Source: Xiphydria camelus
Taxonomy: Eukaryota > Arthropoda > Insecta > Hymenoptera > Xiphydriidae
DNA length: 64,000 bases
NCBI GenBank assembly: GCA_963678675.1
Contig: OY783194.1
Coordinates: forward strand, 21,368,278-21,432,277
Direction of reading: 5' to 3'
Shown here: positions 1-64,000 of the stretch, in pieces
How the letters are laid out: every line of letters begins with the position of its first letter
Numbering within the stretch: the stretch's first letter is position 1
Notes under the pieces: generated by a model
Databases searched by the model: none
Told to the model about the DNA's origin: nothing
The model's input: only the letters and a program-made list of their open reading frames with translations
Made by a program: the position numbers and the translations under genes

Positions 1-156
1 CACTAATTTAGAATTAATCCCATCATCGGTCACATAATGACAAGGCGAGCGGTCTGTTTCGGCTAATCCAGGCTGCTAATGAGTTCGCTGCAGTCCCGCA
101 CCTTCCCGGAAAGGGCTAATTGCTGGACGAGTCGGAATAGATCGTTTTCCGCATAC

Positions 157-871
157 TTAAGGGGGAACGCCACTGTGACGGCCCGAAAAATGACCGTTCT
201 TCGTGAATTTTTTTGAAAGGGTTAATAAATAGTTAAAGGGATGCGGTTTGTTGCATGCTATTACGTAGACTTTCAACTTCATTTATGTACATTTTTATTT
301 AAAAATATTGTAAATTGACAATGTTATTAACATGAATGTTACCCTCGAAAAAATGAACCGCCCTTGTCCCACGTGTTTCGGTATGAAGGATTATTATCTG
401 GAAAAAAAAATTTTTTTTTAAATATCTATAAGAATGTGGCTATCGTTGTACGTAGGGTTTTTTTTTCGCAAAATGCCGAAATATTGAAATTTTTCTTCGT
501 CATTTTCGCAGTTTTTCGTATTCTAGCAGCTTGAAAAAATAGTAAAAATCAAAATTTCAAAAAACCCCTACGTACAACGCGATAGCTATATACTTATAGA
601 TATTAAAATTTTTTTTCTTTTTTCAGATAATCCTTCATACCGAAATACGTGGGACAATGGGGAGGGCGGTTCATTTTTTCCGAGGGTAACATTCATGTTA
701 ATAACATTGTCAGTTTGGAATATTTTTAAATAAAAATGTTTACAAATGAAGCTGAAAGTTTACTTAATAGCATGCAACAAACCGCATCCCTTTAACTATT
801 TATTAACCCTTTCAAAAAAATTCACGAAAAACGGTCATTTTTCGGGCCGTCACAGTGGCGTTCCCCCTTAA
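157..871. mobile_element. TTAA-flanked foldback MITE-like element, unit 1 (reference description)
   Basis: TTAA at 157-160 and 868-871 bound a 707-bp inverted repeat starting GGGGGAACGCCACTGTGACG and ending with its exact reverse complement. The two arms (about 161-467 and 559-867) pair along nearly their whole length, roughly 90% by eye, around a ~90-bp AT-rich centre. No transposase ORF is present, so it is non-autonomous. TTAA duplications are typical of piggyBac-like elements, but the termini do not start with the usual CCC; a TA duplication (Tc1/mariner-like) would fit equally well. It contains AATAAA at 224-229 and 729-734 and the reverse signal at 294-299 and 799-804. This copy has the GATTATTATCT insertion form and CGTCATTTT. 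Confidence 0.8.
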
Positions 872-1115
872 TCTGATAGTTACCGCTATACTTAGAAATA
901 GTAAGTCTTCTTGTAGAGGGGAGAATGGCGAGTTCAAGAGATGACCGACCGGGGAAAGTTAATACCTGGCTTATCAGGTTTCGAGGATCGCTTCAACATT
1001 CCATGCAGCCTGAACCCTCGTTATGACTAAGGCCGAACAACGGTACCCTTGCCCGCTAGATCCGGGACGCGGAAAATACCCAACGTAATCCCTTGTTCTA
1101 ATACCAGTCACTCCT
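872..1115. other. Spacer between MITE-like element and promoter (all units)
   Basis: About 245 bp with no ORF, repeat or RNA gene seen. It holds a type marker near its end: GGGACGCGG in most units, GGGAAGCGG in units 3, 6, 11, 13, 17, 19 and 20. The ~156 bp before the MITE-like element (1-156 in unit 1) is likewise without recognisable content. The same description holds for the matching stretches of all other units. Confidence 0.6.
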
Positions 1116-1266
1116 AGCCAATCAGGGCGCATCGTGTAAGTTTACGTCATCCTCATCCAGCCAATCCGGGCGTACCGCGTCAGCGCACGCTACCCCCACC
1201 CACACACCGCCTTACAACTACTGTTAGATGTAAGATATATAAACCGCGACCAAATGCATGTTAGTC
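1116..1266 (+). promoter_or_regulatory. Polymerase II promoter of F-box copy 1 (reference description)
   Basis: Two CCAAT boxes (1118-1122 and 1161-1165) sit in a direct repeat AGCCAATCNGGGCG, 43 bp or about four helical turns apart, suggesting paired NF-Y sites. Between them is TTACGTCA (1142-1149), a CRE/ATF-like bZIP site. A TATA box, TATATAAA, lies at 1236-1243. An initiator-like TTAGTC at 1261-1266 would place the start near 1263, about 27 bp downstream; A1267 at 31 bp is an alternative. A perfect arthropod initiator TCAGTC also occurs at 1350-1355 without a clear TATA. ATGCAT flanks the start region on both sides. Positions are read directly; function is inferred from motif order and spacing. 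Confidence 0.7.
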
Positions 1267-1267
1267 A

Positions 1268-1471
1268 ATGCATAACCGAAGTGTATCGCCGACCGTACAC
1301 AGTGCAAGCGCTCTAGCTTTTATTCGGACGCTCATAATATCTCATACGCTCAGTCTCATATATTATCATCAGGGTAATCGATTCGCTGTACTTCGCGACT
1401 TCATCCAAAAGTGTGTTTGTGTGTATAACCAAGTGAACAGTGCTTCGTCCAGCATAGAGTATCCCCAGTGA
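1268..1471 (+). other. 67-codon upstream ORF in the 5' leader (present in every complete unit)
   Basis: An ORF starting MHNRSVSP lies between the predicted transcription start (~1263) and the main ATG at 1551, ending 79 bp before it in a different frame. It is intact in all 19 complete units, with one amino-acid change near the end (E or G before YPQ) that tracks unit type. No domain is recognised. If transcription starts at 1263 the ATG is only about 5 nt from the cap and would probably be skipped; an earlier start would make it a real uORF able to damp translation of the F-box gene. It may equally be an untranslated leader. Confidence 0.35.
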
Positions 1472-1550
1472 AGCACATTCAGAAACAAAATCACCGCCGG
1501 GCGATAGTGAGAGCTCTGTAGCACCAGGACGGCGCAGTCAACCAACGCCG

Positions 1551-2840
1551 ATGGAAATATCTCTACCCGCTAAGCCTGAGAGGGCTTTGACGAAACGACA
1601 ATTTCAGGCAGAGGCTGAACAGCGGCAATACTTCATGTTTTCCGACTACTACGCCTTGCTACGGATTTTCGAGTATCTCAACTTTCAGGACCTGCTGCGA
1701 GCGGCGAGAGTGTGTAGAAAGTGGCGTGATCTCGCCGTGCATCCCTCGCTGTGGAGGACGGTGCGGATGAAGGGTAAGTGCGAGGTGACCAATTGGGACG
1801 AATTTGCGGAGGCGTTGAAGAGGTGCGGCACGCGACACTTGGATCTGAGTGAGATGGTGGTCGAGGAGGCGGAGTCCGACGCTATCTCGGAGAAATTCGT
1901 ATCCGTAATATCAATGTTTACGAATCTCGTTAAGCTGGAGCTGTTCCAGTGCCCTGCAAACGTCATCGAAGAAGTGATCGAGAACTGCCCGCAGTTGGAG
2001 GTGTTGAGTGCAATGTCGATAGAGCCCTGCTCTTCTTTGAATTTGAGCTCCGCCGGAAATCTGAAACGCTGTCAGGAGCTAAAATTGAGGGCGATAAACT
2101 GGATGTCCTTGGAGACGGGTCTCTCATCTTTGCAGACGCTGGCTCAGTTAACTCATTTTAGTCTGACGACTGTGGAAGAACTCTACGGGTTTGAACTTGA
2201 CATTTTAGAATCGTTAACAACCCTGGAAACGCTTGAACTCGGAAAGTGTTCCTACCTTCATAAAGAATTCGGCACGCGGGTACTTCCGAAATTGCACAAT
2301 TTGAAACGTCTTAGACTGGAGAATGGATTATTCTTGTGCTGTACGTTCGAGATACTCGAGGGCGTGTCGAAGCTGAAAAATTTGAGTCAATTGGAATTAG
2401 TCAACTTCGAAGTGAAGAACGGCTTCGACAAATACTTGGCGAAATGCAAGAATATCAAAAGGCTACTGATAATACCGATTTATACATCGAATTATGCCAT
2501 GTCGAACAACATGATTCTCAGTGGCGTCATGGAGTTATCAAATAACTTAACGCACTTCGGCTGGGGTTTTGCCGACACGGGCGATTTTATACCGGTGTTA
2601 AAACCAATTCCGTACTTGAAGTCGATCGAGAATATAGAAGATGATAGTTTAGAGGAAGACGATCAGGTGCTACCGAACCTGACGGATTCGCAAGTATACA
2701 TTTTGCGATTGTCTCAACTGCGGAAGCTTCTCCTCACCGCGTTGCCAAAGACGCGGTTCGAAACCTTGGAAATTCCCTTCGACACCAAGTGGCAGCAGAT
2801 TATTTCAGATTCTACCGCTCTCTCAGTAACCAAGAGATAG
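1551..2840 (+). CDS. F-box/LRR protein, copy 1 (reference description)
   Basis: A 429-residue protein encoded without an intron. Residues 28-75 match an F-box, with the hallmark run LLRAARVCRKWRDLAVHPSLW-like at about 48-68 (key residues L48, L49, R50, R53, V54, C55, W58, L61, P65, W68). F-boxes bind Skp1 and recruit the protein to a Cullin-1 ubiquitin ligase. Residues 126-411 hold about twelve irregular leucine-rich segments (for example 126-134, 149-157, 225-233, 251-259, 278-286, 390-398), expected to form the substrate-binding surface. An acidic stretch lies at 359-372. No signal peptide or membrane segment is seen, so a cytosolic or nuclear protein is likely. The start is the first ATG after an in-frame TAG at 1455-1457; it has G at +4. 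This copy has A35, K57, N81, E84, E87, T94, E114, M122, T401. The stop is followed by ATAAAG. F-box/LRR assignment is firm; orthology and substrate are unknown. Confidence 0.9.
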   Translation: MEISLPAKPERALTKRQFQAEAEQRQYFMFSDYYALLRIFEYLNFQDLLRAARVCRKWRDLAVHPSLWRTVRMKGKCEVTNWDEFAEALKRCGTRHLDLSEMVVEEAESDAISEKFVSVISMFTNLVKLELFQCPANVIEEVIENCPQLEVLSAMSIEPCSSLNLSSAGNLKRCQELKLRAINWMSLETGLSSLQTLAQLTHFSLTTVEELYGFELDILESLTTLETLELGKCSYLHKEFGTRVLPKLHNLKRLRLENGLFLCCTFEILEGVSKLKNLSQLELVNFEVKNGFDKYLAKCKNIKRLLIIPIYTSNYAMSNNMILSGVMELSNNLTHFGWGFADTGDFIPVLKPIPYLKSIENIEDDSLEEDDQVLPNLTDSQVYILRLSQLRKLLLTALPKTRFETLEIPFDTKWQQIISDSTALSVTKR

Positions 2841-2906
2841 ATAAAGTAATCGCTAAAGAATTCAAGGAAGCGAACGATGCGAGATGATTAACATTTTCTT
2901 TTAATT

Positions 2907-3248
2907 TTATTCTGCCTCGTCATCGTCAAGGAGGTTCTTATCTAGTATATTCAACAAAAGTATCGTGTTTCCGTATATTATATTTATACACACGTCGATA
3001 TTGATGGCAGAAATAAGATCGTACGGTATTTGCATTCCCGACAGGAGCGACGCGATATCGCTAACGATTTGAGTCAATAAGTCTCTGGATATGACAATTC
3101 GTAAAACCTAGTCTCTCATTATTACACGTACATTAGCTGTCATCCGACACTTTACCATGTCCCTAAATATTACGACACTGCCATTTGGCGTAATTGTACG
3201 AAAAGGGGAAACAAAGATATCAAATTTCCTTAAAAAAATTGCTCCCTC
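2907..3248 (-). pseudogene. Antisense reading frame remnant in unit tail, unit 1 (reference description)
   Basis: On the minus strand, 3248 down to 2907 reads as one frame broken by a single TAG at 3108-3110. The first open stretch is 46 codons (3111-3248), the second 66 codons plus TAA (2907-3107). The second starts VLRIVISRD, is rich in I/L/D/N and ends in an acidic DDDEAE tail. It looks protein-like, but no family is recognised, and a chance open frame of this size is possible. A 48-bp GT...AG intron can be drawn (donor GTAAAG after the codons RDM, acceptor ending in the TAG) that would remove the stop in phase, but it lacks a pyrimidine tract. It could be the last exon of a convergent neighbour gene captured when the unit first duplicated. 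Confidence 0.3.
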
Positions 3249-3468
3249 TTACGGTGGACGAAATTTGACACAACGGTTCATACCGCTCGACATTATTGCT
3301 ATCTAAGTAAAGCACTAATTTAGAATTAATCCCATCATCGGTCACATAATGACAAGGCGAGCGGTCTGTTTCGGCTAATCCAGGCTGCTAATGAGTTCGC
3401 TGCAGTCCCGCACCTTCCCGGAAAGGGCTAATTGCTGGACGAGTCGGAATAGATCGTTTTCCGCATAC

Positions 3469-4183
3469 TTAAGGGGGAACGCCACTGTGACGGCCCGAAA
3501 AATGACCGTTCTTCGTGAATTTTTTTGAAAGGGTTAATAAATAGTTAAAGGGATGCGGTTTGTTGCATGCTATTACGTAGACTTTCAACTTCATTTATGT
3601 ACATTTTTATTTAAAAATATTGTAAATTGACAATGTTATTAACATGAATGTTACCCTCGAAAAAATGAACCGCCCTTGTCCCACGTGTTTCGGTATGAAG
3701 GATTATTATCTGGAAAAAAAAATTTTTTTTTAAATATCTATAAGAATGTGGCTATCGTTGTACGTAGGGTTTTTTTTTCGCAAAATGCCGAAATATTGAA
3801 ATTTTTCTTCGTCATTTTCGCAGTTTTTCGTATTCTAGCAGCTTGAAAAAATAGTAAAAATCAAAATTTCAAAAAACCCCTACGTACAACGCGATAGCTA
3901 TATACTTATAGATATTAAAATTTTTTTTCTTTTTTCAGATAATCCTTCATACCGAAATACGTGGGACAATGGGGAGGGCGGTTCATTTTTTCCGAGGGTA
4001 ACATTCATGTTAATAACATTGTCAGTTTGGAATATTTTTAAATAAAAATGTTTACAAATGAAGCTGAAAGTTTACTTAATAGCATGCAACAAACCGCATC
4101 CCTTTAACTATTTATTAACCCTTTCAAAAAAATTCACGAAAAACGGTCATTTTTCGGGCCGTCACAGTGGCGTTCCCCCTTAA
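3469..4183. mobile_element. Foldback MITE-like element, unit 2
   Basis: Same 715-bp form as unit 1, with TTAA at both ends. Confidence 0.8.
3536..3541 (+). terminator. First AATAAA downstream of F-box copy 1, inside the next unit's MITE-like element
   Basis: No AATAAA or ATTAAA occurs between the stop at 2840 and the end of unit 1. The first canonical poly(A) signal on the plus strand is in the left arm of the next MITE-like element, about 695 bp after the stop. The same arrangement holds for every copy. Use as the real 3' end is inferred. Confidence 0.4.
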
Positions 4184-4427
4184 TCTGATAGTTACCGCTA
4201 TACTTAGAAATAGTAAGTCTTCTTGTAGAGGGGAGAATGGCGAGTTCAAGAGATGACCGACCGGGGAAAGTTAATACCTGGCTTATCAGGTTTCGAGGAT
4301 CGCTTCAACATTCCATGCAGCCTGAACCCTCGTTATGACTAAGGCCGAACAACGGTACCCTTGCCCGCTAGATCCGGGACGCGGAAAATACCCAACGTAA
4401 TCCCTTGTTCTAATACCAGTCACTCCT

Positions 4428-4578
4428 AGCCAATCAGGGCGCATCGTGTAAGTTTACGTCATCCTCATCCAGCCAATCCGGGCGTACCGCGTCAGCGCAC
4501 GCTACCCCCACCCACACACCGCCTTACAACTACTGTTAGATGTAAGATATATAAACCGCGACCAAATGCATGTTAGTC
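4428..4578 (+). promoter_or_regulatory. Promoter of F-box copy 2
   Basis: Same motif order as copy 1; TATATAAA at 4548-4555. Upstream ORF at 4580-4783. Confidence 0.7.
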
Positions 4579-4862
4579 AATGCATAACCGAAGTGTATCG
4601 CCGACCGTACACAGTGCAAGCGCTCTAGCTTTTATTCGGACGCTCATAATATCTCATACGCTCAGTCTCATATATTATCATCAGGGTAATCGATTCGCTG
4701 TACTTCGCGACTTCATCCAAAAGTGTGTTTGTGTGTATAACCAAGTGAACAGTGCTTCGTCCAGCATAGAGTATCCCCAGTGAAGCACATTCAGAAACAA
4801 AATCACCGCCGGGCGATAGTGAGAGCTCTGTAGCACCAGGACGGCGCAGTCAACCAACGCCG

Positions 4863-6152
4863 ATGGAAATATCTCTACCCGCTAAGCCTGAGAGGGCTTT
4901 GACGAAACGACAATTTCAGGCAGAGGCTGAACAGCGGCAATACTTCATGTTTTCCGACTACTACGCCTTGCTACGGATTTTCGAGTATCTCAACTTTCAG
5001 GACCTGCTGCGAGCGGCGAGAGTGTGTAGAAAGTGGCGTGATCTCGCCGTGCATCCCTCGCTGTGGAGGACGGTGCGGATGAAGGGTAAGTGCGAGGTGA
5101 CCAATTGGGACGAATTTGCGGAGGCGTTGAAGAGGTGCGGCACGCGACACTTGGATCTGAGTGAGATGGTGGTCGAGGAGGCGGAGTCCGACGCTATCTC
5201 GGAGAAATTCGTATCCGTAATATCAATGTTTACGAATCTCGTTAAGCTGGAGCTGTTCCAGTGCCCTGCAAACGTCATCGAAGAAGTGATCGAGAACTGC
5301 CCGCAGTTGGAGGTGTTGAGTGCAATGTCGATAGAGCCCTGCTCTTCTTTGAATTTGAGCTCCGCCGGAAATCTGAAACGCTGTCAGGAGCTAAAATTGA
5401 GGGCGATAAACTGGATGTCCTTGGAGACGGGTCTCTCATCTTTGCAGACGCTGGCTCAGTTAACTCATTTTAGTCTGACGACTGTGGAAGAACTCTACGG
5501 GTTTGAACTTGACATTTTAGAATCGTTAACAACCCTGGAAACGCTTGAACTCGGAAAGTGTTCCTACCTTCATAAAGAATTCGGCACGCGGGTACTTCCG
5601 AAATTGCACAATTTGAAACGTCTTAGACTGGAGAATGGATTATTCTTGTGCTGTACGTTCGAGATACTCGAGGGCGTGTCGAAGCTGAAAAATTTGAGTC
5701 AATTGGAATTAGTCAACTTCGAAGTGAAGAACGGCTTCGACAAATACTTGGCGAAATGCAAGAATATCAAAAGGCTACTGATAATACCGATTTATACATC
5801 GAATTATGCCATGTCGAACAACATGATTCTCAGTGGCGTCATGGAGTTATCAAATAACTTAACGCACTTCGGCTGGGGTTTTGCCGACACGGGCGATTTT
5901 ATACCGGTGTTAAAACCAATTCCGTACTTGAAGTCGATCGAGAATATAGAAGATGATAGTTTAGAGGAAGACGATCAGGTGCTACCGAACCTGACGGATT
6001 CGCAAGTATACATTTTGCGATTGTCTCAACTGCGGAAGCTTCTCCTCACCGCGTTGCCAAAGACGCGGTTCGAAACCTTGGAAATTCCCTTCGACACCAA
6101 GTGGCAGCAGATTATTTCAGATTCTACCGCTCTCTCAGTAACCAAGAGATAG
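4863..6152 (+). CDS. F-box/LRR protein, copy 2
   Basis: Protein identical to copy 1 (A35, K57, N81, E84, E87, T94, E114, M122, T401). It differs from copy 1 just after the stop, where ATAGAG replaces ATAAAG. It lies in a 3,312-bp unit with the long form of the MITE-like element. Domain layout is as in copy 1. Confidence 0.9.
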   Translation: MEISLPAKPERALTKRQFQAEAEQRQYFMFSDYYALLRIFEYLNFQDLLRAARVCRKWRDLAVHPSLWRTVRMKGKCEVTNWDEFAEALKRCGTRHLDLSEMVVEEAESDAISEKFVSVISMFTNLVKLELFQCPANVIEEVIENCPQLEVLSAMSIEPCSSLNLSSAGNLKRCQELKLRAINWMSLETGLSSLQTLAQLTHFSLTTVEELYGFELDILESLTTLETLELGKCSYLHKEFGTRVLPKLHNLKRLRLENGLFLCCTFEILEGVSKLKNLSQLELVNFEVKNGFDKYLAKCKNIKRLLIIPIYTSNYAMSNNMILSGVMELSNNLTHFGWGFADTGDFIPVLKPIPYLKSIENIEDDSLEEDDQVLPNLTDSQVYILRLSQLRKLLLTALPKTRFETLEIPFDTKWQQIISDSTALSVTKR

Positions 6153-6218
6153 ATAGAGTAATCGCTAAAGAATTCAAGGAAGCGAACGATGCGAGATGAT
6201 TAACATTTTCTTTTAATT

Positions 6219-6560
6219 TTATTCTGCCTCGTCATCGTCAAGGAGGTTCTTATCTAGTATATTCAACAAAAGTATCGTGTTTCCGTATATTATATTTATA
6301 CACACGTCGATATTGATGGCAGAAATAAGATCGTACGGTATTTGCATTCCCGACAGGAGCGACGCGATATCGCTAACGATTTGAGTCAATAAGTCTCTGG
6401 ATATGACAATTCGTAAAACCTAGTCTCTCATTATTACACGTACATTAGCTGTCATCCGACACTTTACCATGTCCCTAAATATTACGACACTGCCATTTGG
6501 CGTAATTGTACGAAAAGGGGAAACAAAGATATCAAATTTCCTTAAAAAAATTGCTCCCTC
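6219..6560 (-). pseudogene. Antisense frame remnant, unit 2
   Basis: Same broken frame as in unit 1; no difference noticed. Confidence 0.3.
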
Positions 6561-6780
6561 TTACGGTGGACGAAATTTGACACAACGGTTCATACCGCTC
6601 GACATTATTGCTATCTAAGTAAAGCACTAATTTAGAATTAATCCCATCATCGGTCACATAATGACAAGGCGAGCGGTCTGTTTCGGCTAATCCAGGCTGC
6701 TAATGAGTTCGCTGCAGTCCCGCACCTTCCCGGAAAGGGCTAATTGCTGGACGAGTCGGAATAGATCGTTTTCCGCATAC

Positions 6781-7491
6781 TTAAGGGGGAACGCCACTGT
6801 GACGGCCCGAAAAATGACCGTTCTTCGTGAATTTTTTTGAAAGGGTTAATAAATAGTTAAAGGGATGCGGTTTGTTGCATGCTATTACGTAGACTTTCAA
6901 CTTCATTTATGTACATTTTTATTTAAAAATATTGTAAATTGACAATGTTATTAACATGAATGTTACCCTCGAAAAAATGAACCGCCCTTGTCCCACGTGT
7001 TTCGGTATGAAGGATTATCTGGAAAAAAAAATTTTTTTTTAAATATCTATAAGAATGTGGCTATCGTTGTACGTAGGGTTTTTTTTCGCAAAATGCCGAA
7101 ATATTGAAATTTTTCTTCGTTATTTTCGCAGTTTTTCGTATTCTAGCAGCTTGAAAAAATAGTAAAAATCAAAATTTCAAAAAACCCCTACGTACAACGC
7201 GATAGCTATATACTTATAGATATTAAAATTTTTTTTCTTTTTTCAGATAATCCTTCATACCGAAATACGTGGGACAATGGGGAGGGCGGTTCATTTTTTC
7301 CGAGGGTAACATTCATGTTAATAACATTGTCAGTTTGGAATATTTTTAAATAAAAATGTTTACAAATGAAGCTGAAAGTTTACTTAATAGCATGCAACAA
7401 ACCGCATCCCTTTAACTATTTATTAACCCTTTCAAAAAAATTCACGAAAAACGGTCATTTTTTGGGCCGTCACAGTGGCGTTCCCCCTTAA
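6781..7491. mobile_element. Foldback MITE-like element, unit 3 (short form)
   Basis: 711-bp form: GATTATCT instead of GATTATTATCT, one T fewer in a homopolymer, CGTTATTTT, and TTTTTTGGGCC near the right end. The GATTATCT form matches the right arm, so it is probably ancestral. Confidence 0.8.
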
Positions 7492-7735
7492 TCTGATAGT
7501 TACCGCTATACTTAGAAATAGTAAGTCTTCTTGTAGAGGGGAGAATGGCGAGTTCAAGAGATGACCGACCGGGGAAAGTTAATACCTGGCTTATCAGGTT
7601 TCGAGGATCGCTTCAACATTCCATGCAGCCTGAACCCTCGTTATGACTAAGGCCGAACAACGGTACCCTTGCCCGCTAGATCCGGGAAGCGGAAAATACC
7701 CAACGTAATCCCTTGTTCTAATACCAGTCACTCCT

Positions 7736-7886
7736 AGCCAATCAGGGCGCATCGTGTAAGTTTACGTCATCCTCATCCAGCCAATCCGGGCGTACCGCGT
7801 CAGCGCACGCTACCCCCACCCACACACCGCCTTACAACTACTGTTAGATGTAAGATATATAAACCGCGACCAAATGCATGTTAGTC
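7736..7886 (+). promoter_or_regulatory. Promoter of F-box copy 3
   Basis: Same motif order; TATATAAA at 7856-7863. Upstream ORF at 7888-8091, ending GYPQ. Confidence 0.7.
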
Positions 7887-8170
7887 AATGCATAACCGAA
7901 GTGTATCGCCGACCGTACACAGTGCAAGCGCTCTAGCTTTTATTCGGACGCTCATAATATCTCATACGCTCAGTCTCATATATTATCATCAGGGTAATCG
8001 ATTCGCTGTACTTCGCGACTTCATCCAAAAGTGTGTTTGTGTGTATAACCAAGTGAACAGTGCTTCGTCCAGCATAGGGTATCCCCAGTGAAGCACATTC
8101 AGAAACAAAATCACCGCCGGGCGATAGTGAGAGCTCTGTAGCACCAGGACGGCGCAGTCAACCAACGCCG

Positions 8171-9460
8171 ATGGAAATATCTCTACCCGCTAAGCCTGAG
8201 AGGGCTTTGACGAAACGACAATTTCAGGCAGAGGCTGAACAGCGGCAATACTTCATGTTTTCCGACTACTACTCCTTGCTACGGATTTTCGAGTATCTCA
8301 ACTTTCAGGACCTGCTGCGAGCGGCGAGAGTGTGTAGAATGTGGCGTGATCTCGCCGTGCATCCCTCGCTGTGGAGGACGGTGCGGATGAAGGGTAAGTG
8401 CGAGGTGACCAATTGGGACGAATTTGCGGAGGCGTTGAAGAGGTGCGGCACGCGACACTTGGATCTGAGTGAGATGGTGGTCGAGGAGGCGGAGTCCGAC
8501 GCTATCTCGGAGAAATTCGTATCCGTAATATCAATGTTTACGAATCTCGTTAAGCTGGAGCTGTTCCAGTGCCCTGCAAACGTCATCGAAGAAGTGATCG
8601 AGAACTGCCCGCAGTTGGAGGTGTTGAGTGCAATGTCGATAGAGCCCTGCTCTTCTTTGAATTTGAGCTCCGCCGGAAATCTGAAACGCTGTCAGGAGCT
8701 AAAATTGAGGGCGATAAACTGGATGTCCTTGGAGACGGGTCTCTCATCTTTGCAGACGCTGGCTCAGTTAACTCATTTTAGTCTGACGACTGTGGAAGAA
8801 CTCTACGGGTTTGAACTTGACATTTTAGAATCGTTAACAACCCTGGAAACGCTTGAACTCGGAAAGTGTTCCTACCTTCATAAAGAATTCGGCACGCGGG
8901 TACTTCCGAAATTGCACAATTTGAAACGTCTTAGACTGGAGAATGGATTATTCTTGTGCTGTACGTTCGAGATACTCGAGGGCGTGTCGAAGCTGAAAAA
9001 TTTGAGTCAATTGGAATTAGTCAACTTCGAAGTGAAGAACGGCTTCGACAAATACTTGGCGAAATGCAAGAATATCAAAAGGCTACTGATAATACCGATT
9101 TATACATCGAATTATGCCATGTCGAACAACATGATTCTCAGTGGCGTCATGGAGTTATCAAATAACTTAACGCACTTCGGCTGGGGTTTTGCCGACACGG
9201 GCGATTTTATACCGGTGTTAAAACCAATTCCGTACTTGAAGTCGATCGAGAATATAGAAGATGATAGTTTAGAGGAAGACGATCAGGTGCTACCGAACCT
9301 GACGGATTCGCAAGTATACATTTTGCGATTGTCTCAACTGCGGAAGCTTCTCCTCACCGCGTTGCCAAAGACGCGGTTCGAAACCTTGGAAATTCCCTTC
9401 GACACCAAGTGGCAGCAGATTATTTCAGATTCTACCGCTCTCTCAGTAACCAAGAGATAG
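8171..9460 (+). CDS. F-box/LRR protein, copy 3 (S35/M57 variant)
   Basis: Full-length copy with two changes inside the F-box: S35 (TCC for GCC) and M57 (ATG for AAG). The usual F-box pattern has a basic residue near position 57, so M57 may alter the Skp1 contact; this is inference. Other variable residues are N81, E84, E87, T94, E114, M122, T401. It lies in a 3,308-bp unit whose upstream ORF ends GYPQ rather than EYPQ and whose spacer reads GGGAAGCGG. The stop is followed by ATAGAG, unlike the two other S35 copies (6 and 11), which have ATAAAG. Confidence 0.9.
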   Translation: MEISLPAKPERALTKRQFQAEAEQRQYFMFSDYYSLLRIFEYLNFQDLLRAARVCRMWRDLAVHPSLWRTVRMKGKCEVTNWDEFAEALKRCGTRHLDLSEMVVEEAESDAISEKFVSVISMFTNLVKLELFQCPANVIEEVIENCPQLEVLSAMSIEPCSSLNLSSAGNLKRCQELKLRAINWMSLETGLSSLQTLAQLTHFSLTTVEELYGFELDILESLTTLETLELGKCSYLHKEFGTRVLPKLHNLKRLRLENGLFLCCTFEILEGVSKLKNLSQLELVNFEVKNGFDKYLAKCKNIKRLLIIPIYTSNYAMSNNMILSGVMELSNNLTHFGWGFADTGDFIPVLKPIPYLKSIENIEDDSLEEDDQVLPNLTDSQVYILRLSQLRKLLLTALPKTRFETLEIPFDTKWQQIISDSTALSVTKR

Positions 9461-9526
9461 ATAGAGTAATCGCTAAAGAATTCAAGGAAGCGAACGATGC
9501 GAGATGATTAACATTTTCTTTTAATT

Positions 9527-9868: not shown

Positions 9869-10088
9869 TTACGGTGGACGAAATTTGACACAACGGTTCA
9901 TACCGCTCGACATTATTGCTATCTAAGTAAAGCACTAATTTAGAATTAATCCCATCATCGGTCACATAATGACAAGGCGAGCGGTCTGTTTCGGCTAATC
10001 CAGGCTGCTAATGAGTTCGCTGCAGTCCCGCACCTTCCCGGAAAGGGCTAATTGCTGGACGAGTCGGAATAGATCGTTTTCCGCATAC

Positions 10089-10803
10089 TTAAGGGGGAAC
10101 GCCACTGTGACGGCCCGAAAAATGACCGTTCTTCGTGAATTTTTTTGAAAGGGTTAATAAATAGTTAAAGGGATGCGGTTTGTTGCATGCTATTACGTAG
10201 ACTTTCAACTTCATTTATGTACATTTTTATTTAAAAATATTGTAAATTGACAATGTTATTAACATGAATGTTACCCTCGAAAAAATGAACCGCCCTTGTC
10301 CCACGTGTTTCGGTATGAAGGATTATTATCTGGAAAAAAAAATTTTTTTTTAAATATCTATAAGAATGTGGCTATCGTTGTACGTAGGGTTTTTTTTTCG
10401 CAAAATGCCGAAATATTGAAATTTTTCTTCGTCATTTTCGCAGTTTTTCGTATTCTAGCAGCTTGAAAAAATAGTAAAAATCAAAATTTCAAAAAACCCC
10501 TACGTACAACGCGATAGCTATATACTTATAGATATTAAAATTTTTTTTCTTTTTTCAGATAATCCTTCATACCGAAATACGTGGGACAATGGGGAGGGCG
10601 GTTCATTTTTTCCGAGGGTAACATTCATGTTAATAACATTGTCAGTTTGGAATATTTTTAAATAAAAATGTTTACAAATGAAGCTGAAAGTTTACTTAAT
10701 AGCATGCAACAAACCGCATCCCTTTAACTATTTATTAACCCTTTCAAAAAAATTCACGAAAAACGGTCATTTTTCGGGCCGTCACAGTGGCGTTCCCCCT
10801 TAA
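10089..10803. mobile_element. Foldback MITE-like element, unit 4
   Basis: 715-bp form as in units 1 and 2. Confidence 0.8.
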
Positions 10804-11047
10804 TCTGATAGTTACCGCTATACTTAGAAATAGTAAGTCTTCTTGTAGAGGGGAGAATGGCGAGTTCAAGAGATGACCGACCGGGGAAAGTTAATACCTG
10901 GCTTATCAGGTTTCGAGGATCGCTTCAACATTCCATGCAGCCTGAACCCTCGTTATGACTAAGGCCGAACAACGGTACCCTTGCCCGCTAGATCCGGGAC
11001 GCGGAAAATACCCAACGTAATCCCTTGTTCTAATACCAGTCACTCCT

Positions 11048-11198
11048 AGCCAATCAGGGCGCATCGTGTAAGTTTACGTCATCCTCATCCAGCCAATCCG
11101 GGCGTACCGCGTCAGCGCACGCTACCCCCACCCACACACCGCCTTACAACTACTGTTAGATGTAAGATATATAAACCGCGACCAAATGCATGTTAGTC
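11048..11198 (+). promoter_or_regulatory. Promoter of F-box copy 4
   Basis: Same motif order; TATATAAA at 11168-11175. Upstream ORF at 11200-11403. Confidence 0.7.
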
Positions 11199-11482
11199 AA
11201 TGCATAACCGAAGTGTATCGCCGACCGTACACAGTGCAAGCGCTCTAGCTTTTATTCGGACGCTCATAATATCTCATACGCTCAGTCTCATATATTATCA
11301 TCAGGGTAATCGATTCGCTGTACTTCGCGACTTCATCCAAAAGTGTGTTTGTGTGTATAACCAAGTGAACAGTGCTTCGTCCAGCATAGAGTATCCCCAG
11401 TGAAGCACATTCAGAAACAAAATCACCGCCGGGCGATAGTGAGAGCTCTGTAGCACCAGGACGGCGCAGTCAACCAACGCCG

Positions 11483-12772
11483 ATGGAAATATCTCTACCC
11501 GCTAAGCCTGAGAGGGCTTTGACGAAACGACAATTTCAGGCAGAGGCTGAACAGCGGCAATACTTCATGTTTTCCGACTACTACGCCTTGCTACGGATTT
11601 TCGAGTATCTCAACTTTCAGGACCTGCTGCGAGCGGCGAGAGTGTGTAGAAAGTGGCGTGATCTCGCCGTGCATCCCTCGCTGTGGAGGACGGTGCGGAT
11701 GAAGGGTAAGTGCGAGGTGACCAATTGGGACGAATTTGCGGAGGCGTTGAAGAGGTGCGGCACGCGACACTTGGATCTGAGTGAGATGGTGGTCGAGGAG
11801 GCGGAGTCCGACGCTATCTCGGAGAAATTCGTATCCGTAATATCAATGTTTACGAATCTCGTTAAGCTGGAGCTGTTCCAGTGCCCTGCAAACGTCATCG
11901 AAGAAGTGATCGAGAACTGCCCGCAGTTGGAGGTGTTGAGTGCAATGTCGATAGAGCCCTGCTCTTCTTTGAATTTGAGCTCCGCCGGAAATCTGAAACG
12001 CTGTCAGGAGCTAAAATTGAGGGCGATAAACTGGATGTCCTTGGAGACGGGTCTCTCATCTTTGCAGACGCTGGCTCAGTTAACTCATTTTAGTCTGACG
12101 ACTGTGGAAGAACTCTACGGGTTTGAACTTGACATTTTAGAATCGTTAACAACCCTGGAAACGCTTGAACTCGGAAAGTGTTCCTACCTTCATAAAGAAT
12201 TCGGCACGCGGGTACTTCCGAAATTGCACAATTTGAAACGTCTTAGACTGGAGAATGGATTATTCTTGTGCTGTACGTTCGAGATACTCGAGGGCGTGTC
12301 GAAGCTGAAAAATTTGAGTCAATTGGAATTAGTCAACTTCGAAGTGAAGAACGGCTTCGACAAATACTTGGCGAAATGCAAGAATATCAAAAGGCTACTG
12401 ATAATACCGATTTATACATCGAATTATGCCATGTCGAACAACATGATTCTCAGTGGCGTCATGGAGTTATCAAATAACTTAACGCACTTCGGCTGGGGTT
12501 TTGCCGACACGGGCGATTTTATACCGGTGTTAAAACCAATTCCGTACTTGAAGTCGATCGAGAATATAGAAGATGATAGTTTAGAGGAAGACGATCAGGT
12601 GCTACCGAACCTGACGGATTCGCAAGTATACATTTTGCGATTGTCTCAACTGCGGAAGCTTCTCCTCACCGCGTTGCCAAAGACGCGGTTCGAAACCTTG
12701 GAAATTCCCTTCGACACCAAGTGGCAGCAGATTATTTCAGATTCTACCGCTCTCTCAGTAACCAAGAGATAG
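11483..12772 (+). CDS. F-box/LRR protein, copy 4
   Basis: Protein identical to copy 1 (A35, K57). Its unit is 3,312 bp, and the stop is followed by ATAAAG as in copy 1. Copies 4-6 thus resemble a second round of the copy 1-3 block. Confidence 0.9.
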   Translation: MEISLPAKPERALTKRQFQAEAEQRQYFMFSDYYALLRIFEYLNFQDLLRAARVCRKWRDLAVHPSLWRTVRMKGKCEVTNWDEFAEALKRCGTRHLDLSEMVVEEAESDAISEKFVSVISMFTNLVKLELFQCPANVIEEVIENCPQLEVLSAMSIEPCSSLNLSSAGNLKRCQELKLRAINWMSLETGLSSLQTLAQLTHFSLTTVEELYGFELDILESLTTLETLELGKCSYLHKEFGTRVLPKLHNLKRLRLENGLFLCCTFEILEGVSKLKNLSQLELVNFEVKNGFDKYLAKCKNIKRLLIIPIYTSNYAMSNNMILSGVMELSNNLTHFGWGFADTGDFIPVLKPIPYLKSIENIEDDSLEEDDQVLPNLTDSQVYILRLSQLRKLLLTALPKTRFETLEIPFDTKWQQIISDSTALSVTKR

Positions 12773-12838
12773 ATAAAGTAATCGCTAAAGAATTCAAGGA
12801 AGCGAACGATGCGAGATGATTAACATTTTCTTTTAATT

Positions 12839-13180
12839 TTATTCTGCCTCGTCATCGTCAAGGAGGTTCTTATCTAGTATATTCAACAAAAGTATCGTGT
12901 TTCCGTATATTATATTTATACACACGTCGATATTGATGGCAGAAATAAGATCGTACGGTATTTGCATTCCCGACAGGAGCGACGCGATATCGCTAACGAT
13001 TTGAGTCAATAAGTCTCTGGATATGACAATTCGTAAAACCTAGTCTCTCATTATTACACGTACATTAGCTGTCATCCGACACTTTACCATGTCCCTAAAT
13101 ATTACGACACTGCCATTTGGCGTAATTGTACGAAAAGGGGAAACAAAGATATCAAATTTCCTTAAAAAAATTGCTCCCTC
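12839..13180 (-). pseudogene. Antisense frame remnant, unit 4
   Basis: Same broken frame as in unit 1; no difference noticed. Confidence 0.3.
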
Positions 13181-13400
13181 TTACGGTGGACGAAATTTGA
13201 CACAACGGTTCATACCGCTCGACATTATTGCTATCTAAGTAAAGCACTAATTTAGAATTAATCCCATCATCGGTCACATAATGACAAGGCGAGCGGTCTG
13301 TTTCGGCTAATCCAGGCTGCTAATGAGTTCGCTGCAGTCCCGCACCTTCCCGGAAAGGGCTAATTGCTGGACGAGTCGGAATAGATCGTTTTCCGCATAC

Positions 13401-14115
13401 TTAAGGGGGAACGCCACTGTGACGGCCCGAAAAATGACCGTTCTTCGTGAATTTTTTTGAAAGGGTTAATAAATAGTTAAAGGGATGCGGTTTGTTGCAT
13501 GCTATTACGTAGACTTTCAACTTCATTTATGTACATTTTTATTTAAAAATATTGTAAATTGACAATGTTATTAACATGAATGTTACCCTCGAAAAAATGA
13601 ACCGCCCTTGTCCCACGTGTTTCGGTATGAAGGATTATTATCTGGAAAAAAAAATTTTTTTTTAAATATCTATAAGAATGTGGCTATCGTTGTACGTAGG
13701 GTTTTTTTTTCGCAAAATGCCGAAATATTGAAATTTTTCTTCGTCATTTTCGCAGTTTTTCGTATTCTAGCAGCTTGAAAAAATAGTAAAAATCAAAATT
13801 TCAAAAAACCCCTACGTACAACGCGATAGCTATATACTTATAGATATTAAAATTTTTTTTCTTTTTTCAGATAATCCTTCATACCGAAATACGTGGGACA
13901 ATGGGGAGGGCGGTTCATTTTTTCCGAGGGTAACATTCATGTTAATAACATTGTCAGTTTGGAATATTTTTAAATAAAAATGTTTACAAATGAAGCTGAA
14001 AGTTTACTTAATAGCATGCAACAAACCGCATCCCTTTAACTATTTATTAACCCTTTCAAAAAAATTCACGAAAAACGGTCATTTTTCGGGCCGTCACAGT
14101 GGCGTTCCCCCTTAA
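13401..14115. mobile_element. Foldback MITE-like element, unit 5
   Basis: 715-bp form as in units 1, 2 and 4. Confidence 0.8.
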
Positions 14116-14359
14116 TCTGATAGTTACCGCTATACTTAGAAATAGTAAGTCTTCTTGTAGAGGGGAGAATGGCGAGTTCAAGAGATGACCGACCGGGGAA
14201 AGTTAATACCTGGCTTATCAGGTTTCGAGGATCGCTTCAACATTCCATGCAGCCTGAACCCTCGTTATGACTAAGGCCGAACAACGGTACCCTTGCCCGC
14301 TAGATCCGGGACGCGGAAAATACCCAACGTAATCCCTTGTTCTAATACCAGTCACTCCT

Positions 14360-14510
14360 AGCCAATCAGGGCGCATCGTGTAAGTTTACGTCATCCTCAT
14401 CCAGCCAATCCGGGCGTACCGCGTCAGCGCACGCTACCCCCACCCACACACCGCCTTACAACTACTGTTAGATGTAAGATATATAAACCGCGACCAAATG
14501 CATGTTAGTC
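14360..14510 (+). promoter_or_regulatory. Promoter of F-box copy 5
   Basis: Same motif order; TATATAAA at 14480-14487. Upstream ORF at 14512-14715. Confidence 0.7.
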
Positions 14511-14794
14511 AATGCATAACCGAAGTGTATCGCCGACCGTACACAGTGCAAGCGCTCTAGCTTTTATTCGGACGCTCATAATATCTCATACGCTCAGTCT
14601 CATATATTATCATCAGGGTAATCGATTCGCTGTACTTCGCGACTTCATCCAAAAGTGTGTTTGTGTGTATAACCAAGTGAACAGTGCTTCGTCCAGCATA
14701 GAGTATCCCCAGTGAAGCACATTCAGAAACAAAATCACCGCCGGGCGATAGTGAGAGCTCTGTAGCACCAGGACGGCGCAGTCAACCAACGCCG

Positions 14795-16084: not shown

Positions 16085-16150
16085 ATAGAGTAATCGCTAA
16101 AGAATTCAAGGAAGCGAACGATGCGAGATGATTAACATTTTCTTTTAATT

Positions 16151-16492
16151 TTATTCTGCCTCGTCATCGTCAAGGAGGTTCTTATCTAGTATATTCAACA
16201 AAAGTATCGTGTTTCCGTATATTATATTTATACACACGTCGATATTGATGGCAGAAATAAGATCGTACGGTATTTGCATTCCCGACAGGAGCGACGCGAT
16301 ATCGCTAACGATTTGAGTCAATAAGTCTCTGGATATGACAATTCGTAAAACCTAGTCTCTCATTATTACACGTACATTAGCTGTCATCCGACACTTTACC
16401 ATGTCCCTAAATATTACGACACTGCCATTTGGCGTAATTGTACGAAAAGGGGAAACAAAGATATCAAATTTCCTTAAAAAAATTGCTCCCTC
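16151..16492 (-). pseudogene. Antisense frame remnant, unit 5
   Basis: Same broken frame as in unit 1; no difference noticed. Confidence 0.3.
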
Positions 16493-16712
16493 TTACGGTG
16501 GACGAAATTTGACACAACGGTTCATACCGCTCGACATTATTGCTATCTAAGTAAAGCACTAATTTAGAATTAATCCCATCATCGGTCACATAATGACAAG
16601 GCGAGCGGTCTGTTTCGGCTAATCCAGGCTGCTAATGAGTTCGCTGCAGTCCCGCACCTTCCCGGAAAGGGCTAATTGCTGGACGAGTCGGAATAGATCG
16701 TTTTCCGCATAC

Positions 16713-17423: not shown

Positions 17424-17667
17424 TCTGATAGTTACCGCTATACTTAGAAATAGTAAGTCTTCTTGTAGAGGGGAGAATGGCGAGTTCAAGAGATGACCGA
17501 CCGGGGAAAGTTAATACCTGGCTTATCAGGTTTCGAGGATCGCTTCAACATTCCATGCAGCCTGAACCCTCGTTATGACTAAGGCCGAACAACGGTACCC
17601 TTGCCCGCTAGATCCGGGAAGCGGAAAATACCCAACGTAATCCCTTGTTCTAATACCAGTCACTCCT

Positions 17668-19392: not shown

Positions 19393-19458
19393 ATAAAGTA
19401 ATCGCTAAAGAATTCAAGGAAGCGAACGATGCGAGATGATTAACATTTTCTTTTAATT

Positions 19459-24721: not shown

Positions 24722-26011
24722 ATGGAAATATCTCTACCCGCTAAGCCTGAGAGGGCTTTGACGAAACGACAATTTCAGGCAGAGGCTGAACAGCGGCAAT
24801 ACTTCATGTTTTCCGACTACTACGCCTTGCTACGGATTTTCGAGTATCTCAACTTTCAGGACCTGCTGCGAGCGGCGAGAGTGTGTAGAATGTGGCGTGA
24901 TCTCGCCGTGCATCCCTCGCTGTGGAGGACGGTGCGGATGAAGGGTAAGTGCGAGGTGACCGATTGGGACGGATTTGCGAAGGCGTTGAAGAGGTGCGGC
25001 ACGCGACACTTGGATCTGAGTGAGATGGTGGTCGAGGAGGCGGAGTCCGACGCTATCTCGGATAAATTCGTATCCGTAATATCAAGGTTTACGAATCTCG
25101 TTAAGCTGGAGCTGTTCCAGTGCCCTGCAAACGTCATCGAAGAAGTGATCGAGAACTGCCCGCAGTTGGAGGTGTTGAGTGCAATGTCGATAGAGCCCTG
25201 CTCTTCTTTGAATTTGAGCTCCGCCGGAAATCTGAAACGCTGTCAGGAGCTAAAATTGAGGGCGATAAACTGGATGTCCTTGGAGACGGGTCTCTCATCT
25301 TTGCAGACGCTGGCTCAGTTAACTCATTTTAGTCTGACGACTGTGGAAGAACTCTACGGGTTTGAACTTGACATTTTAGAATCGTTAACAACCCTGGAAA
25401 CGCTTGAACTCGGAAAGTGTTCCTACCTTCATAAAGAATTCGGCACGCGGGTACTTCCGAAATTGCACAATTTGAAACGTCTTAGACTGGAGAATGGATT
25501 ATTCTTGTGCTGTACGTTCGAGATACTCGAGGGCGTGTCGAAGCTGAAAAATTTGAGTCAATTGGAATTAGTCAACTTCGAAGTGAAGAACGGCTTCGAC
25601 AAATACTTGGCGAAATGCAAGAATATCAAAAGGCTACTGATAATACCGATTTATACATCGAATTATGCCATGTCGAACAACATGATTCTCAGTGGCGTCA
25701 TGGAGTTATCAAATAACTTAACGCACTTCGGCTGGGGTTTTGCCGACACGGGCGATTTTATACCGGTGTTAAAACCAATTCCGTACTTGAAGTCGATCGA
25801 GAATATAGAAGATGATAGTTTAGAGGAAGACGATCAGGTGCTACCGAACCTGACGGATTCGCAAGTATACATTTTGCGATTGTCTCAACTGCGGAAGCTT
25901 CTCCTCACCGCGTTGCCAAAGACGCGGTTCGAAACCTTGGAAATTCCCTTCGACACCAAGTGGCAGCAGATTATTTCAGATTCTACCGCTCTCTCAGTAA
26001 CCAAGAGATAG
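24722..26011 (+). CDS. F-box/LRR protein, copy 8 (D81/G84/K87 haplotype with D114 and R122)
   Basis: The most diverged protein in the window: M57 plus N81D, E84G, E87K, E114D and M122R relative to copy 1. D114 occurs in no other copy. The changes sit in the segment linking the F-box to the first leucine-rich segments. The unit is 3,308 bp but has the EYPQ upstream ORF and GGGACGCGG spacer, unlike the S35-type short units. The stop is followed by ATAAAG. Confidence 0.9.
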   Translation: MEISLPAKPERALTKRQFQAEAEQRQYFMFSDYYALLRIFEYLNFQDLLRAARVCRMWRDLAVHPSLWRTVRMKGKCEVTDWDGFAKALKRCGTRHLDLSEMVVEEAESDAISDKFVSVISRFTNLVKLELFQCPANVIEEVIENCPQLEVLSAMSIEPCSSLNLSSAGNLKRCQELKLRAINWMSLETGLSSLQTLAQLTHFSLTTVEELYGFELDILESLTTLETLELGKCSYLHKEFGTRVLPKLHNLKRLRLENGLFLCCTFEILEGVSKLKNLSQLELVNFEVKNGFDKYLAKCKNIKRLLIIPIYTSNYAMSNNMILSGVMELSNNLTHFGWGFADTGDFIPVLKPIPYLKSIENIEDDSLEEDDQVLPNLTDSQVYILRLSQLRKLLLTALPKTRFETLEIPFDTKWQQIISDSTALSVTKR

Positions 26012-59106: not shown

Positions 59107-59172
59107 ATAGAGTAATCGCTAAAGAATTCAAGGAAGCGAACGATGCGAGATGATTAACATTTTCTTTTAATT

Positions 59173-61124: not shown

Positions 61125-62414
61125 ATGGAAATATCTCTACCCGCTAAGCCTGAGAGGGCTTTGACGAAACGACAATTTCAGGCAGAGGCTGAACAGCGGC
61201 AATACTTCATGTTTTCCGACTACTACGCCTTGCTACGGATTTTCGAGTATCTCAACTTTCAGGACCTGCTGCGAGCGGCGAGAGTGTGTAGAATGTGGCG
61301 TGATCTCGCCGTGCATCCCTCGCTGTGGAGGACGGTGCGGATGAAGGGTAAGTGCGAGGTGACCAATTGGGACGAATTTGCGGAGGCGTTGAAGAGGTGC
61401 GGCACGCGACACTTGGATCTGAGTGAGATGGTGGTCGAGGAGGCGGAGTCCGACGCTATCTCGGAGAAATTCGTATCCGTAATATCAATGTTTACGAATC
61501 TCGTTAAGCTGGAGCTGTTCCAGTGCCCTGCAAACGTCATCGAAGAAGTGATCGAGAACTGCCCGCAGTTGGAGGTGTTGAGTGCAATGTCGATAGAGCC
61601 CTGCTCTTCTTTGAATTTGAGCTCCGCCGGAAATCTGAAACGCTGTCAGGAGCTAAAATTGAGGGCGATAAACTGGATGTCCTTGGAGACGGGTCTCTCA
61701 TCTTTGCAGACGCTGGCTCAGTTAACTCATTTTAGTCTGACGACTGTGGAAGAACTCTACGGGTTTGAACTTGACATTTTAGAATCGTTAACAACCCTGG
61801 AAACGCTTGAACTCGGAAAGTGTTCCTACCTTCATAAAGAATTCGGCACGCGGGTACTTCCGAAATTGCACAATTTGAAACGTCTTAGACTGGAGAATGG
61901 ATTATTCTTGTGCTGTACGTTCGAGATACTCGAGGGCGTGTCGAAGCTGAAAAATTTGAGTCAATTGGAATTAGTCAACTTCGAAGTGAAGAACGGCTTC
62001 GACAAATACTTGGCGAAATGCAAGAATATCAAAAGGCTACTGATAATACCGATTTATACATCGAATTATGCCATGTCGAACAACATGATTCTCAGTGGCG
62101 TCATGGAGTTATCAAATAACTTAACGCACTTCGGCTGGGGTTTTGCCGACACGGGCGATTTTATACCGGTGTTAAAACCAATTCCGTACTTGAAGTCGAT
62201 CGAGAATATAGAAGATGATAGTTTAGAGGAAGACGATCAGGTGCTACCGAACCTGACGGATTCGCAAGTATACATTTTGCGATTGTCTCAACTGCGGAAG
62301 CTTCTCCTCACCGCGTTGCCAAAGACGCGGTTCGAAACCTTGGAAATTCCCTTCGACACCAAGTGGCAGCAGATTATTTCAGATTCTACCGCTCTCTCAG
62401 TAACCAAGAGATAG
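61125..62414 (+). CDS. F-box/LRR protein, copy 19 (A35/M57 variant)
   Basis: Same protein as copies 7, 12, 13 and 17 (A35, M57). The 3,308-bp unit has the GYPQ upstream ORF and GGGAAGCGG spacer but lacks the two private C markers of copies 13 and 17. The stop is followed by ATAAAG. The next, partial unit is also of the short type. Confidence 0.9.
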   Translation: MEISLPAKPERALTKRQFQAEAEQRQYFMFSDYYALLRIFEYLNFQDLLRAARVCRMWRDLAVHPSLWRTVRMKGKCEVTNWDEFAEALKRCGTRHLDLSEMVVEEAESDAISEKFVSVISMFTNLVKLELFQCPANVIEEVIENCPQLEVLSAMSIEPCSSLNLSSAGNLKRCQELKLRAINWMSLETGLSSLQTLAQLTHFSLTTVEELYGFELDILESLTTLETLELGKCSYLHKEFGTRVLPKLHNLKRLRLENGLFLCCTFEILEGVSKLKNLSQLELVNFEVKNGFDKYLAKCKNIKRLLIIPIYTSNYAMSNNMILSGVMELSNNLTHFGWGFADTGDFIPVLKPIPYLKSIENIEDDSLEEDDQVLPNLTDSQVYILRLSQLRKLLLTALPKTRFETLEIPFDTKWQQIISDSTALSVTKR

Positions 62415-62480
62415 ATAAAGTAATCGCTAAAGAATTCAAGGAAGCGAACGATGCGAGATGATTAACATTTTCTTTTAATT

Positions 62481-62822
62481 TTATTCTGCCTCGTCATCGT
62501 CAAGGAGGTTCTTATCTAGTATATTCAACAAAAGTATCGTGTTTCCGTATATTATATTTATACACACGTCGATATTGATGGCAGAAATAAGATCGTACGG
62601 TATTTGCATTCCCGACAGGAGCGACGCGATATCGCTAACGATTTGAGTCAATAAGTCTCTGGATATGACAATTCGTAAAACCTAGTCTCTCATTATTACA
62701 CGTACATTAGCTGTCATCCGACACTTTACCATGTCCCTAAATATTACGACACTGCCATTTGGCGTAATTGTACGAAAAGGGGAAACAAAGATATCAAATT
62801 TCCTTAAAAAAATTGCTCCCTC
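62481..62822 (-). pseudogene. Antisense frame remnant, unit 19
   Basis: Same broken frame as in unit 1; no difference noticed. Confidence 0.3.
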
Positions 62823-62886
62823 TTACGGTGGACGAAATTTGACACAACGGTTCATACCGCTCGACATTATTGCTATCTAAGTAAAG

Positions 62887-64000
62887 CACTAATTTAGAAT
62901 TAATCCCATCATCGGTCACATAATGACAAGGCGAGCGGTCTGTTTCGGCTAATCCAGGCTGCTAATGAGTTCGCTGCAGTCCCGCACCTTCCCGGAAAGG
63001 GCTAATTGCTGGACGAGTCGGAATAGATCGTTTTCCGCATACTTAAGGGGGAACGCCACTGTGACGGCCCGAAAAATGACCGTTCTTCGTGAATTTTTTT
63101 GAAAGGGTTAATAAATAGTTAAAGGGATGCGGTTTGTTGCATGCTATTACGTAGACTTTCAACTTCATTTATGTACATTTTTATTTAAAAATATTGTAAA
63201 TTGACAATGTTATTAACATGAATGTTACCCTCGAAAAAATGAACCGCCCTTGTCCCACGTGTTTCGGTATGAAGGATTATCTGGAAAAAAAAATTTTTTT
63301 TTAAATATCTATAAGAATGTGGCTATCGTTGTACGTAGGGTTTTTTTTCGCAAAATGCCGAAATATTGAAATTTTTCTTCGTTATTTTCGCAGTTTTTCG
63401 TATTCTAGCAGCTTGAAAAAATAGTAAAAATCAAAATTTCAAAAAACCCCTACGTACAACGCGATAGCTATATACTTATAGATATTAAAATTTTTTTTCT
63501 TTTTTCAGATAATCCTTCATACCGAAATACGTGGGACAATGGGGAGGGCGGTTCATTTTTTCCGAGGGTAACATTCATGTTAATAACATTGTCAGTTTGG
63601 AATATTTTTAAATAAAAATGTTTACAAATGAAGCTGAAAGTTTACTTAATAGCATGCAACAAACCGCATCCCTTTAACTATTTATTAACCCTTTCAAAAA
63701 AATTCACGAAAAACGGTCATTTTTTGGGCCGTCACAGTGGCGTTCCCCCTTAATCTGATAGTTACCGCTATACTTAGAAATAGTAAGTCTTCTTGTAGAG
63801 GGGAGAATGGCGAGTTCAAGAGATGACCGACCGGGGAAAGTTAATACCTGGCTTATCAGGTTTCGAGGATCGCTTCAACATTCCATGCAGCCTGAACCCT
63901 CGTTATGACTAAGGCCGAACAACGGTACCCTTGCCCGCTAGATCCGGGAAGCGGAAAATACCCAACGTAATCCCTTGTTCTAATACCAGTCACTCCTAGC
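62887..64000 (+). repeat. Partial unit 20, cut by window end
   Basis: Holds the unit start, a complete short-form MITE-like element and the spacer with GGGAAGCGG. The window ends just inside the first CCAAT box, so promoter and gene lie outside. It is a short-type unit directly after short-type unit 19, breaking the alternation. Confidence 0.95.
63043..63753. mobile_element. Foldback MITE-like element, unit 20 (short form)
   Basis: 711-bp form matching unit 19. It is complete although its unit is cut by the window end. Confidence 0.8.

Follow-up and report, generated by a model that had tools for sequence, protein, structure and literature searches.

A probable F-box/LRR retrogene amplified into a homogenised tandem array in Xiphydria camelus

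At least 19 near-identical copies of an F-box/LRR gene stand head to tail in a stretch of the hymenopteran Xiphydria camelus (contig OY783194.1, positions 21,368,278 to 21,432,277), which raises the question of where this gene came from and how its copies are kept alike. We refer to the whole 64,000-base stretch that was analysed as the window. Our reading is that the array is probably a tandemly amplified and homogenised retrogene whose parent is a conserved gene for an MBD + F-box + LRR protein. The initial annotation described the array and overlooked three of its features: the probable retrocopy origin, the very fast change of the gene and a palindromic element in each unit.

The array and signs of exchange among its copies

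Repeat units of 3,308-3,312 bp each fill the window end to end in head-to-tail order (1..64000, + strand). Unit starts number 20, the first being base 1, and the array touches both window ends, comprising 19 complete units followed by 1,114 bp of an incomplete one. Among the frames of at least 150 amino acids in the 64,000 bases, 19 open reading frames (ORFs) of the gene were found, all on the + strand, with an ATG start and a length of 429 amino acids (1,290 bp including the stop codon). Copy 1 lies at 1551..2840; copies 2-10 start at 4863, 8171, 11483, 14795, 18103, 21414, 24722, 28032 and 31342, and copies 11-19 at 34650, 37961, 41269, 44580, 47888, 51198, 54506, 57817 and 61125. None of the 19 ORFs carries an internal stop or a coding indel, and the indel columns in the coding alignment stem from the partial 20th unit alone. 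The array is confirmed as real and not a chance arrangement, and the uninterrupted run of at least 19 near-identical F-box/LRR genes with a period of ~3.31 kb stands as it was first annotated. Because the array fills the window, it very likely continues past both ends, and its size as seen in one 64,000-base window is a lower bound of at least 19 complete copies. The output of Tandem Repeats Finder was empty, the longest period detectable being 500, below the unit length.

Over the 19 full units, there are 31 single-nucleotide polymorphism (SNP) columns, of which 10 are coding, 14 lie in the palindromic element upstream of the gene and 7 are in other non-coding sequence. Five further variable columns are indels, every one inside the palindromic element. 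Pairs of units differ by 8.0 SNPs on average, giving a nucleotide diversity (pi) of 0.24%. The 19 units include 15 distinct ones and encode eight distinct proteins; four unit pairs are SNP-identical, and 11/31 SNPs are found in a single unit and 6/31 in two.

The mean number of differences between units was 8.7 at lag 1, 7.0-10.0 at lags 2-17 and 5.0 at lag 18 (one pair). Divergence does not clearly increase with the distance between copies, and adjacent copies are no closer to each other than far-apart ones. All four combinations occur in 26 of 190 informative SNP pairs, and exact repeats of 9,463, 6,467 and 6,460 bp recur at offsets of 3, 4 and 5 units. The units form a mosaic, in which a 3-bp deletion at 390-392 mostly alternates every two units. 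The multi-unit block repeats indicate unequal exchange, and exchange probably takes place inside units too, alongside that of multi-unit blocks. Because nucleotide diversity is low, the lag profile flat, four-combination SNP pairs present and exact blocks of 6.5-9.5 kb repeated, the data support a recent or ongoing amplification with homogenisation, as had been proposed from the first reading. With near-identical whole units and signs of exchange, the locus belongs with homogenised tandem gene arrays of the ELOA3 or Stellate kind. The 9,463-bp repeat pairs 1-9463 with 9933-19395 at a three-unit offset; its first copy begins with the first base of the window, so the repeat may continue to the left.

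Old and new amino-acid states coexist within the array. At positions 57, 81, 84 and 122, some copies hold the commonest state of 22 related proteins of the parental type (described below), while the remaining copies hold another: 57M is found in 13/19 copies, 81D in 5/19 and 122R in 4/19, and position 84 is G in 5/19 copies and E in 14/19. Positions 57, 81 and 84 are invariant in 22/22 parents, and position 122 is R in 16 of the 22. Copy 8 (24722..26011, + strand) has the commonest parental state at all four (57M, 81D, 84G and 122R) and also 87K and 114D. Since parental and new states stand side by side, as at position 84, the array would be useful for watching residue replacement: it could reveal how concerted evolution replaces amino acids, and help to tell whether this takes selection or exchange alone.

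The initial annotation also stressed that all copies are intact. This holds for the reading frames; the 10 coding SNPs give no proof of selection between copies. SNP density is 7.75 per kb in the coding part versus 5.36 per kb in the non-coding flanks (p = 0.48), and the probability of zero stops given 10 coding SNPs is 0.63. With so few coding SNPs, and coding diversity not below non-coding diversity, the open frames alone are no sign of selection since the amplification. Nine of these 10 SNPs are non-synonymous versus 73% expected, which hints at positive selection among copies, but the excess is not significant (p = 0.21) and we do not retain it. Eight of the 10 lie in codons 35-122, a cluster picked post hoc (p = 9e-5; 6/8, p = 0.0014, with positions 81, 84 and 87 counted as one event).

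The encoded protein and its parent gene

Pfam was run on copy 1, where F-box models score well above their cut-offs (PF12937 F-box-like, 54.4 bits against a cut-off of 24.3, E = 1e-14; PF00646 F-box, 41.5 bits against 20.5), which identifies the product as an F-box protein. Pfam LRR models match below cut-off in the same copy, and NCBIfam gave two weak LRR-protein matches, far under cut-off. An AlphaFold2 model based on 36 aligned sequences (mean predicted local distance difference test score, pLDDT, 84.8) shows the F-box followed by LRR-like strand-helix repeats. By its predicted fold, an LRR solenoid after the F-box, the protein is of the F-box/LRR (FBXL) type. The TIR1, FBXL2, FBXL17 and SKP2 complexes are within the top 12 fold matches, with modest template modelling (TM) scores of ~0.4-0.5 to the query. 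Nothing resembling a signal peptide stands out among the first 40 residues, where the highest 12-residue hydropathy is 0.83, as judged without a predictor. The array product most likely docks on SKP1/CUL1 via the retained F-box, and most likely exposes a changed LRR surface for substrate contact while lacking the parental MBD. The very high dosage of one SCF substrate receptor put forward in the initial annotation is a hypothetical consequence of the copy number.

Many of the best 120 of 445 matches are of the parental type, long proteins with an MBD (PF01429), an F-box (PF00646/PF12937) and LRRs; the hosts named there are bees, ants, wasps, a sawfly and beetles, and Apis LOC412607 and Tribolium LOC664527 are example genes. 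Named relatives among the matches listed are all insects, and a distant weak match, P0036, shows no organism. Longer parental forms also have a cysteine-rich block, to which two beetle entries give the name PHD-type zinc finger. The homologue search scored 7,994 candidates, all proteins of ~236-750 amino acids, among which P0001 is the closest (61% identical). Identity to the 22 parents compared, a hand-picked set in which 6/22 were assumed to be hymenopteran by likeness, is 56-65%. In the tree, the split between Hymenoptera and beetles (support 100/100) places the array gene with Hymenoptera, and this grouping suggests an offshoot of a hymenopteran MBD + F-box + LRR protein. For its finer placement within Hymenoptera, approximately unbiased (AU) tests rejected 0/5 placements (p 0.136-0.835), and N-terminal scores did not separate the groups.

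Since its separation from the parents, the gene has changed very fast. Its terminal branch is 0.85 substitutions per site (0.7 for its stem in another tree), versus 0.061-0.066 for Orussus, Neodiprion and lgn72, and thus exceeds the branches of the slowest parents ~11-13 times. At 233 positions, all 22 parents share one residue; of these, 57 are substituted in the array gene, 15 deleted and 161 kept, and any one parent breaks only 0-7 of the 233-240 positions invariant in the other parents. Most of the conserved parental VTLELLRVTELFVDQC stretch is missing from the array gene. We considered whether the change is concentrated on the LRR strands and rejected it: changed versus kept invariant positions were 13/45 on strands, 14/39 on helices and 18/46 elsewhere.

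A second short, fast-changing member of 429 amino acids, P0005, has an end branch of 1.15 and retains the stretch lost by the array gene. Its place in the tree is beside chalcid parents, at an open fork, and it is possibly an independent offshoot.

Probable retrocopy origin and its alternatives

Three junctions in the parental proteins bear on the origin of the array gene. At the first, P0025, P0026 and P0035 start their homology at Q|SLTSV and P0031 departs at L|VRIS, breaks of the kind expected at a splice acceptor and a splice donor; the array gene is continuous across this junction (LTHF|SLTTV). It is also continuous near the second boundary, seen as NQK|G in P0026 and DPLK|GE in P0035. 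At the third, KRLLT is followed by the cysteine-rich block in Apis P0055 (RLLTPKVQEPCSIRC), and the block is skipped in Xylocopa P0037 (QLTKKQS) and in P0042 (RLLTRKQN), the latter being nearly the same protein as P0055. The array gene reads RALTKRQ here, as the short forms do and not the long form. The MBD is absent from it. Because the gene is continuous across three inferred parental junctions and has no MBD, it is most likely a 5'-truncated retrogene, without the parental introns as far as proteins reveal them.

Several points weigh against this reading. The junctions were read from predicted proteins and not from parental DNA. P0034 reads through SLTSV and P0025 through the second boundary, and intron content may vary among insects. 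Neither a poly(A) remnant nor a target-site duplication was recognised in unit 1, read by eye; both may have decayed or been lost at unit formation. An in-frame stretch directly upstream of the gene (1479..1550, + strand) matches the parental linker before the F-box in a tblastn comparison with P0001, which is suggestive only: a shuffle test supports homology of these 72 bases before the ATG with 2/9 parents, uncorrected. As to a working product, 9/32 parent-invariant positions within residues 35-76 are substituted in the array gene, internalins and other LRR proteins rank alongside the FBXL complexes at the same modest TM-scores, a short upstream ORF could hinder translation, and the coding SNPs lean towards amino-acid changes, not significantly so.

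On the retrogene reading, which we favour, a spliced mRNA of a short parental isoform would have been copied into DNA minus its 5' part including the MBD, as the continuous junctions suggest. The retrocopy would then have acquired a start codon and a promoter, for which there are candidate motifs. Its F-box/LRR frame appears to have stayed open under selection during a much faster change than in the parent. The 3.3-kb unit of gene and upstream palindromic transposon-like element was multiplied head-to-tail. Multi-unit unequal exchange, together with conversion or crossing over within units, would hold the copies at ~99.8% identity, and new amino-acid variants may spread through the array during this exchange.

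The alternative that survives best is a selfish or non-coding array, perhaps driven by the palindrome, whose ORFs are open merely through youth and homogenisation. It is consistent with the coding SNP density, which is no lower than the non-coding one, with the chance of 0.63 of seeing zero stops among so few coding SNPs and with the presence of the palindromic element in every unit. However, the frame survived ~36% protein divergence before the amplification. When neutral drift without indels was simulated until protein identity had fallen to 64%, the runs acquired 9.2 stops on average and 0 of 2,000 remained open, so the frame was very likely preserved by selection before amplification. The 161 parent-invariant residues that were kept also argue against this explanation, and we regard it as unlikely.

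An amplified conflict gene, i.e. a Stellate-like driver, a suppressor or a germline dosage gene, would by analogy account for the high copy number and the fast protein change, and neighbouring copies are no more alike than distant ones, as in the euchromatic Stellate cluster. Stellate, however, is a CK2-beta-like gene and not an F-box gene, and we hold this explanation to be rather doubtful. A related and similarly tentative idea is that the array acts as an MBD-less rival of its parent, competing at high dosage for SKP1 or for parental substrates and driven by germline conflict, with K57, N81, E84 and M122 spreading copy by copy.

A duplication of the parent at the DNA level, with later loss of introns and upstream exons and no retrocopy, would fit the lack of a recognised poly(A) tail or target-site duplication in unit 1, yet it needs the traceless removal of two introns and of the skipped block and is thus quite improbable. 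Finally, an assembly artefact in which the assembler expanded one or few copies is very unlikely: the four SNP-identical unit pairs and the 9.46-kb block recurring exactly would suit it, but looping of one unit would yield exact copies, whereas 15/19 units and 8 proteins are distinct and the rarer SNPs are confined to one unit or two.

Known counterparts and features around the gene

The array is probably an F-box/LRR case of an already known kind, the homogenised tandem retrogene arrays, and the closest known case is ELOA3 (Elongin A3) of primates. ELOA3 is a retrogene that lacks introns and derives from a multi-exon regulatory gene; its tandem repeats are near-identical, numbering 12 in one human assembly, with intact ORFs in 93% of copies and concerted evolution (PMC10664989). 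Each repeat has an HSMAR2 transposon ahead of its coding exon, and modest purifying selection as well as biochemical and cell data are reported (PMC10664989). The two cases have in common a retrogene, tandem near-identity, an upstream element, homogenisation and mostly intact ORFs; ELOA3 differs in being an elongation factor, in its element and in belonging to primates, and the copies described here show no measurable constraint. If the retrogene reading is true, the locus would be an insect counterpart of ELOA3, with a conserved gene as the source of a shortened retrogene that now forms a large homogenised array.

In the euchromatic Stellate cluster of Drosophila melanogaster, adjacent copies from one strain are reported to be no closer to each other than copies that lie apart; the gene has a known effect in spermatocytes and a copy number of one to about 198 (PMC12400953). 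The likeness lies in a protein-coding tandem array whose neighbours are not more similar, and the difference in the unrelated gene. Large insect F-box/LRR expansions are also described for Aphidius ervi, with 232 F-box/LRR genes in four groups (PMC7257214), and for the Hessian fly (SSGP-71); these are alike at least by gene class. In the open-access literature (main texts without supplements), no paper title was found that deals with an array of this sort in Hymenoptera, the Aphidius ervi expansion being the nearest. The parent itself has F-box and LRR blocks homologous to those of the array gene, which differs in having no MBD, little of the VTLELLRVTELFVDQC stretch, continuity at the inferred junctions and much faster change.

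Searches for other genes in the unit gave little. Rfam at E up to 1 over bases 1-7000 and ARAGORN over bases 1-6700 had zero matches; therefore, two units show no trace of a partner such as a histone-type stem-loop, an rRNA, an snRNA or a tRNA. Viral contigs searched with the protein and with a 21-base piece of the palindromic element also gave zero matches. A 66-codon frame on the minus strand in the 3' part of the unit (2907-3107) reads like a terminal exon. As a candidate gene it was rejected, having no match in Pfam, the PDB or a protein-database look-up that covered proteins of similar length, and it is probably a chance frame.

Upstream of the gene, candidate promoter motifs were found by motif match. 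Two CCAAT boxes lie at 1118 and 1161 (1118..1165, + strand) in unit 1, and TATATAAA, a candidate TATA box, at 1236..1243 (+ strand); together with its following bases, the latter occurs 19 times in the window. An ATG at 1268, ~30 bases past the TATA motif, opens the upstream ORF of 67 amino acids (1268-1471), which ends before the main ATG and has no Pfam match.

Further upstream is the palindromic element, which resembles a miniature inverted-repeat transposable element (MITE). In unit 1, it occupies 157..871 (715 bp including TTAA ends, no strand assigned), with arms at 157-353 and 675-871 that are 94% complementary, plus further arm pieces. The window holds 20 copies of it, one upstream of the gene in each unit, and its SNP density is above that of the rest of the unit (p = 0.003). 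If transcribed, the element could fold into a long hairpin.

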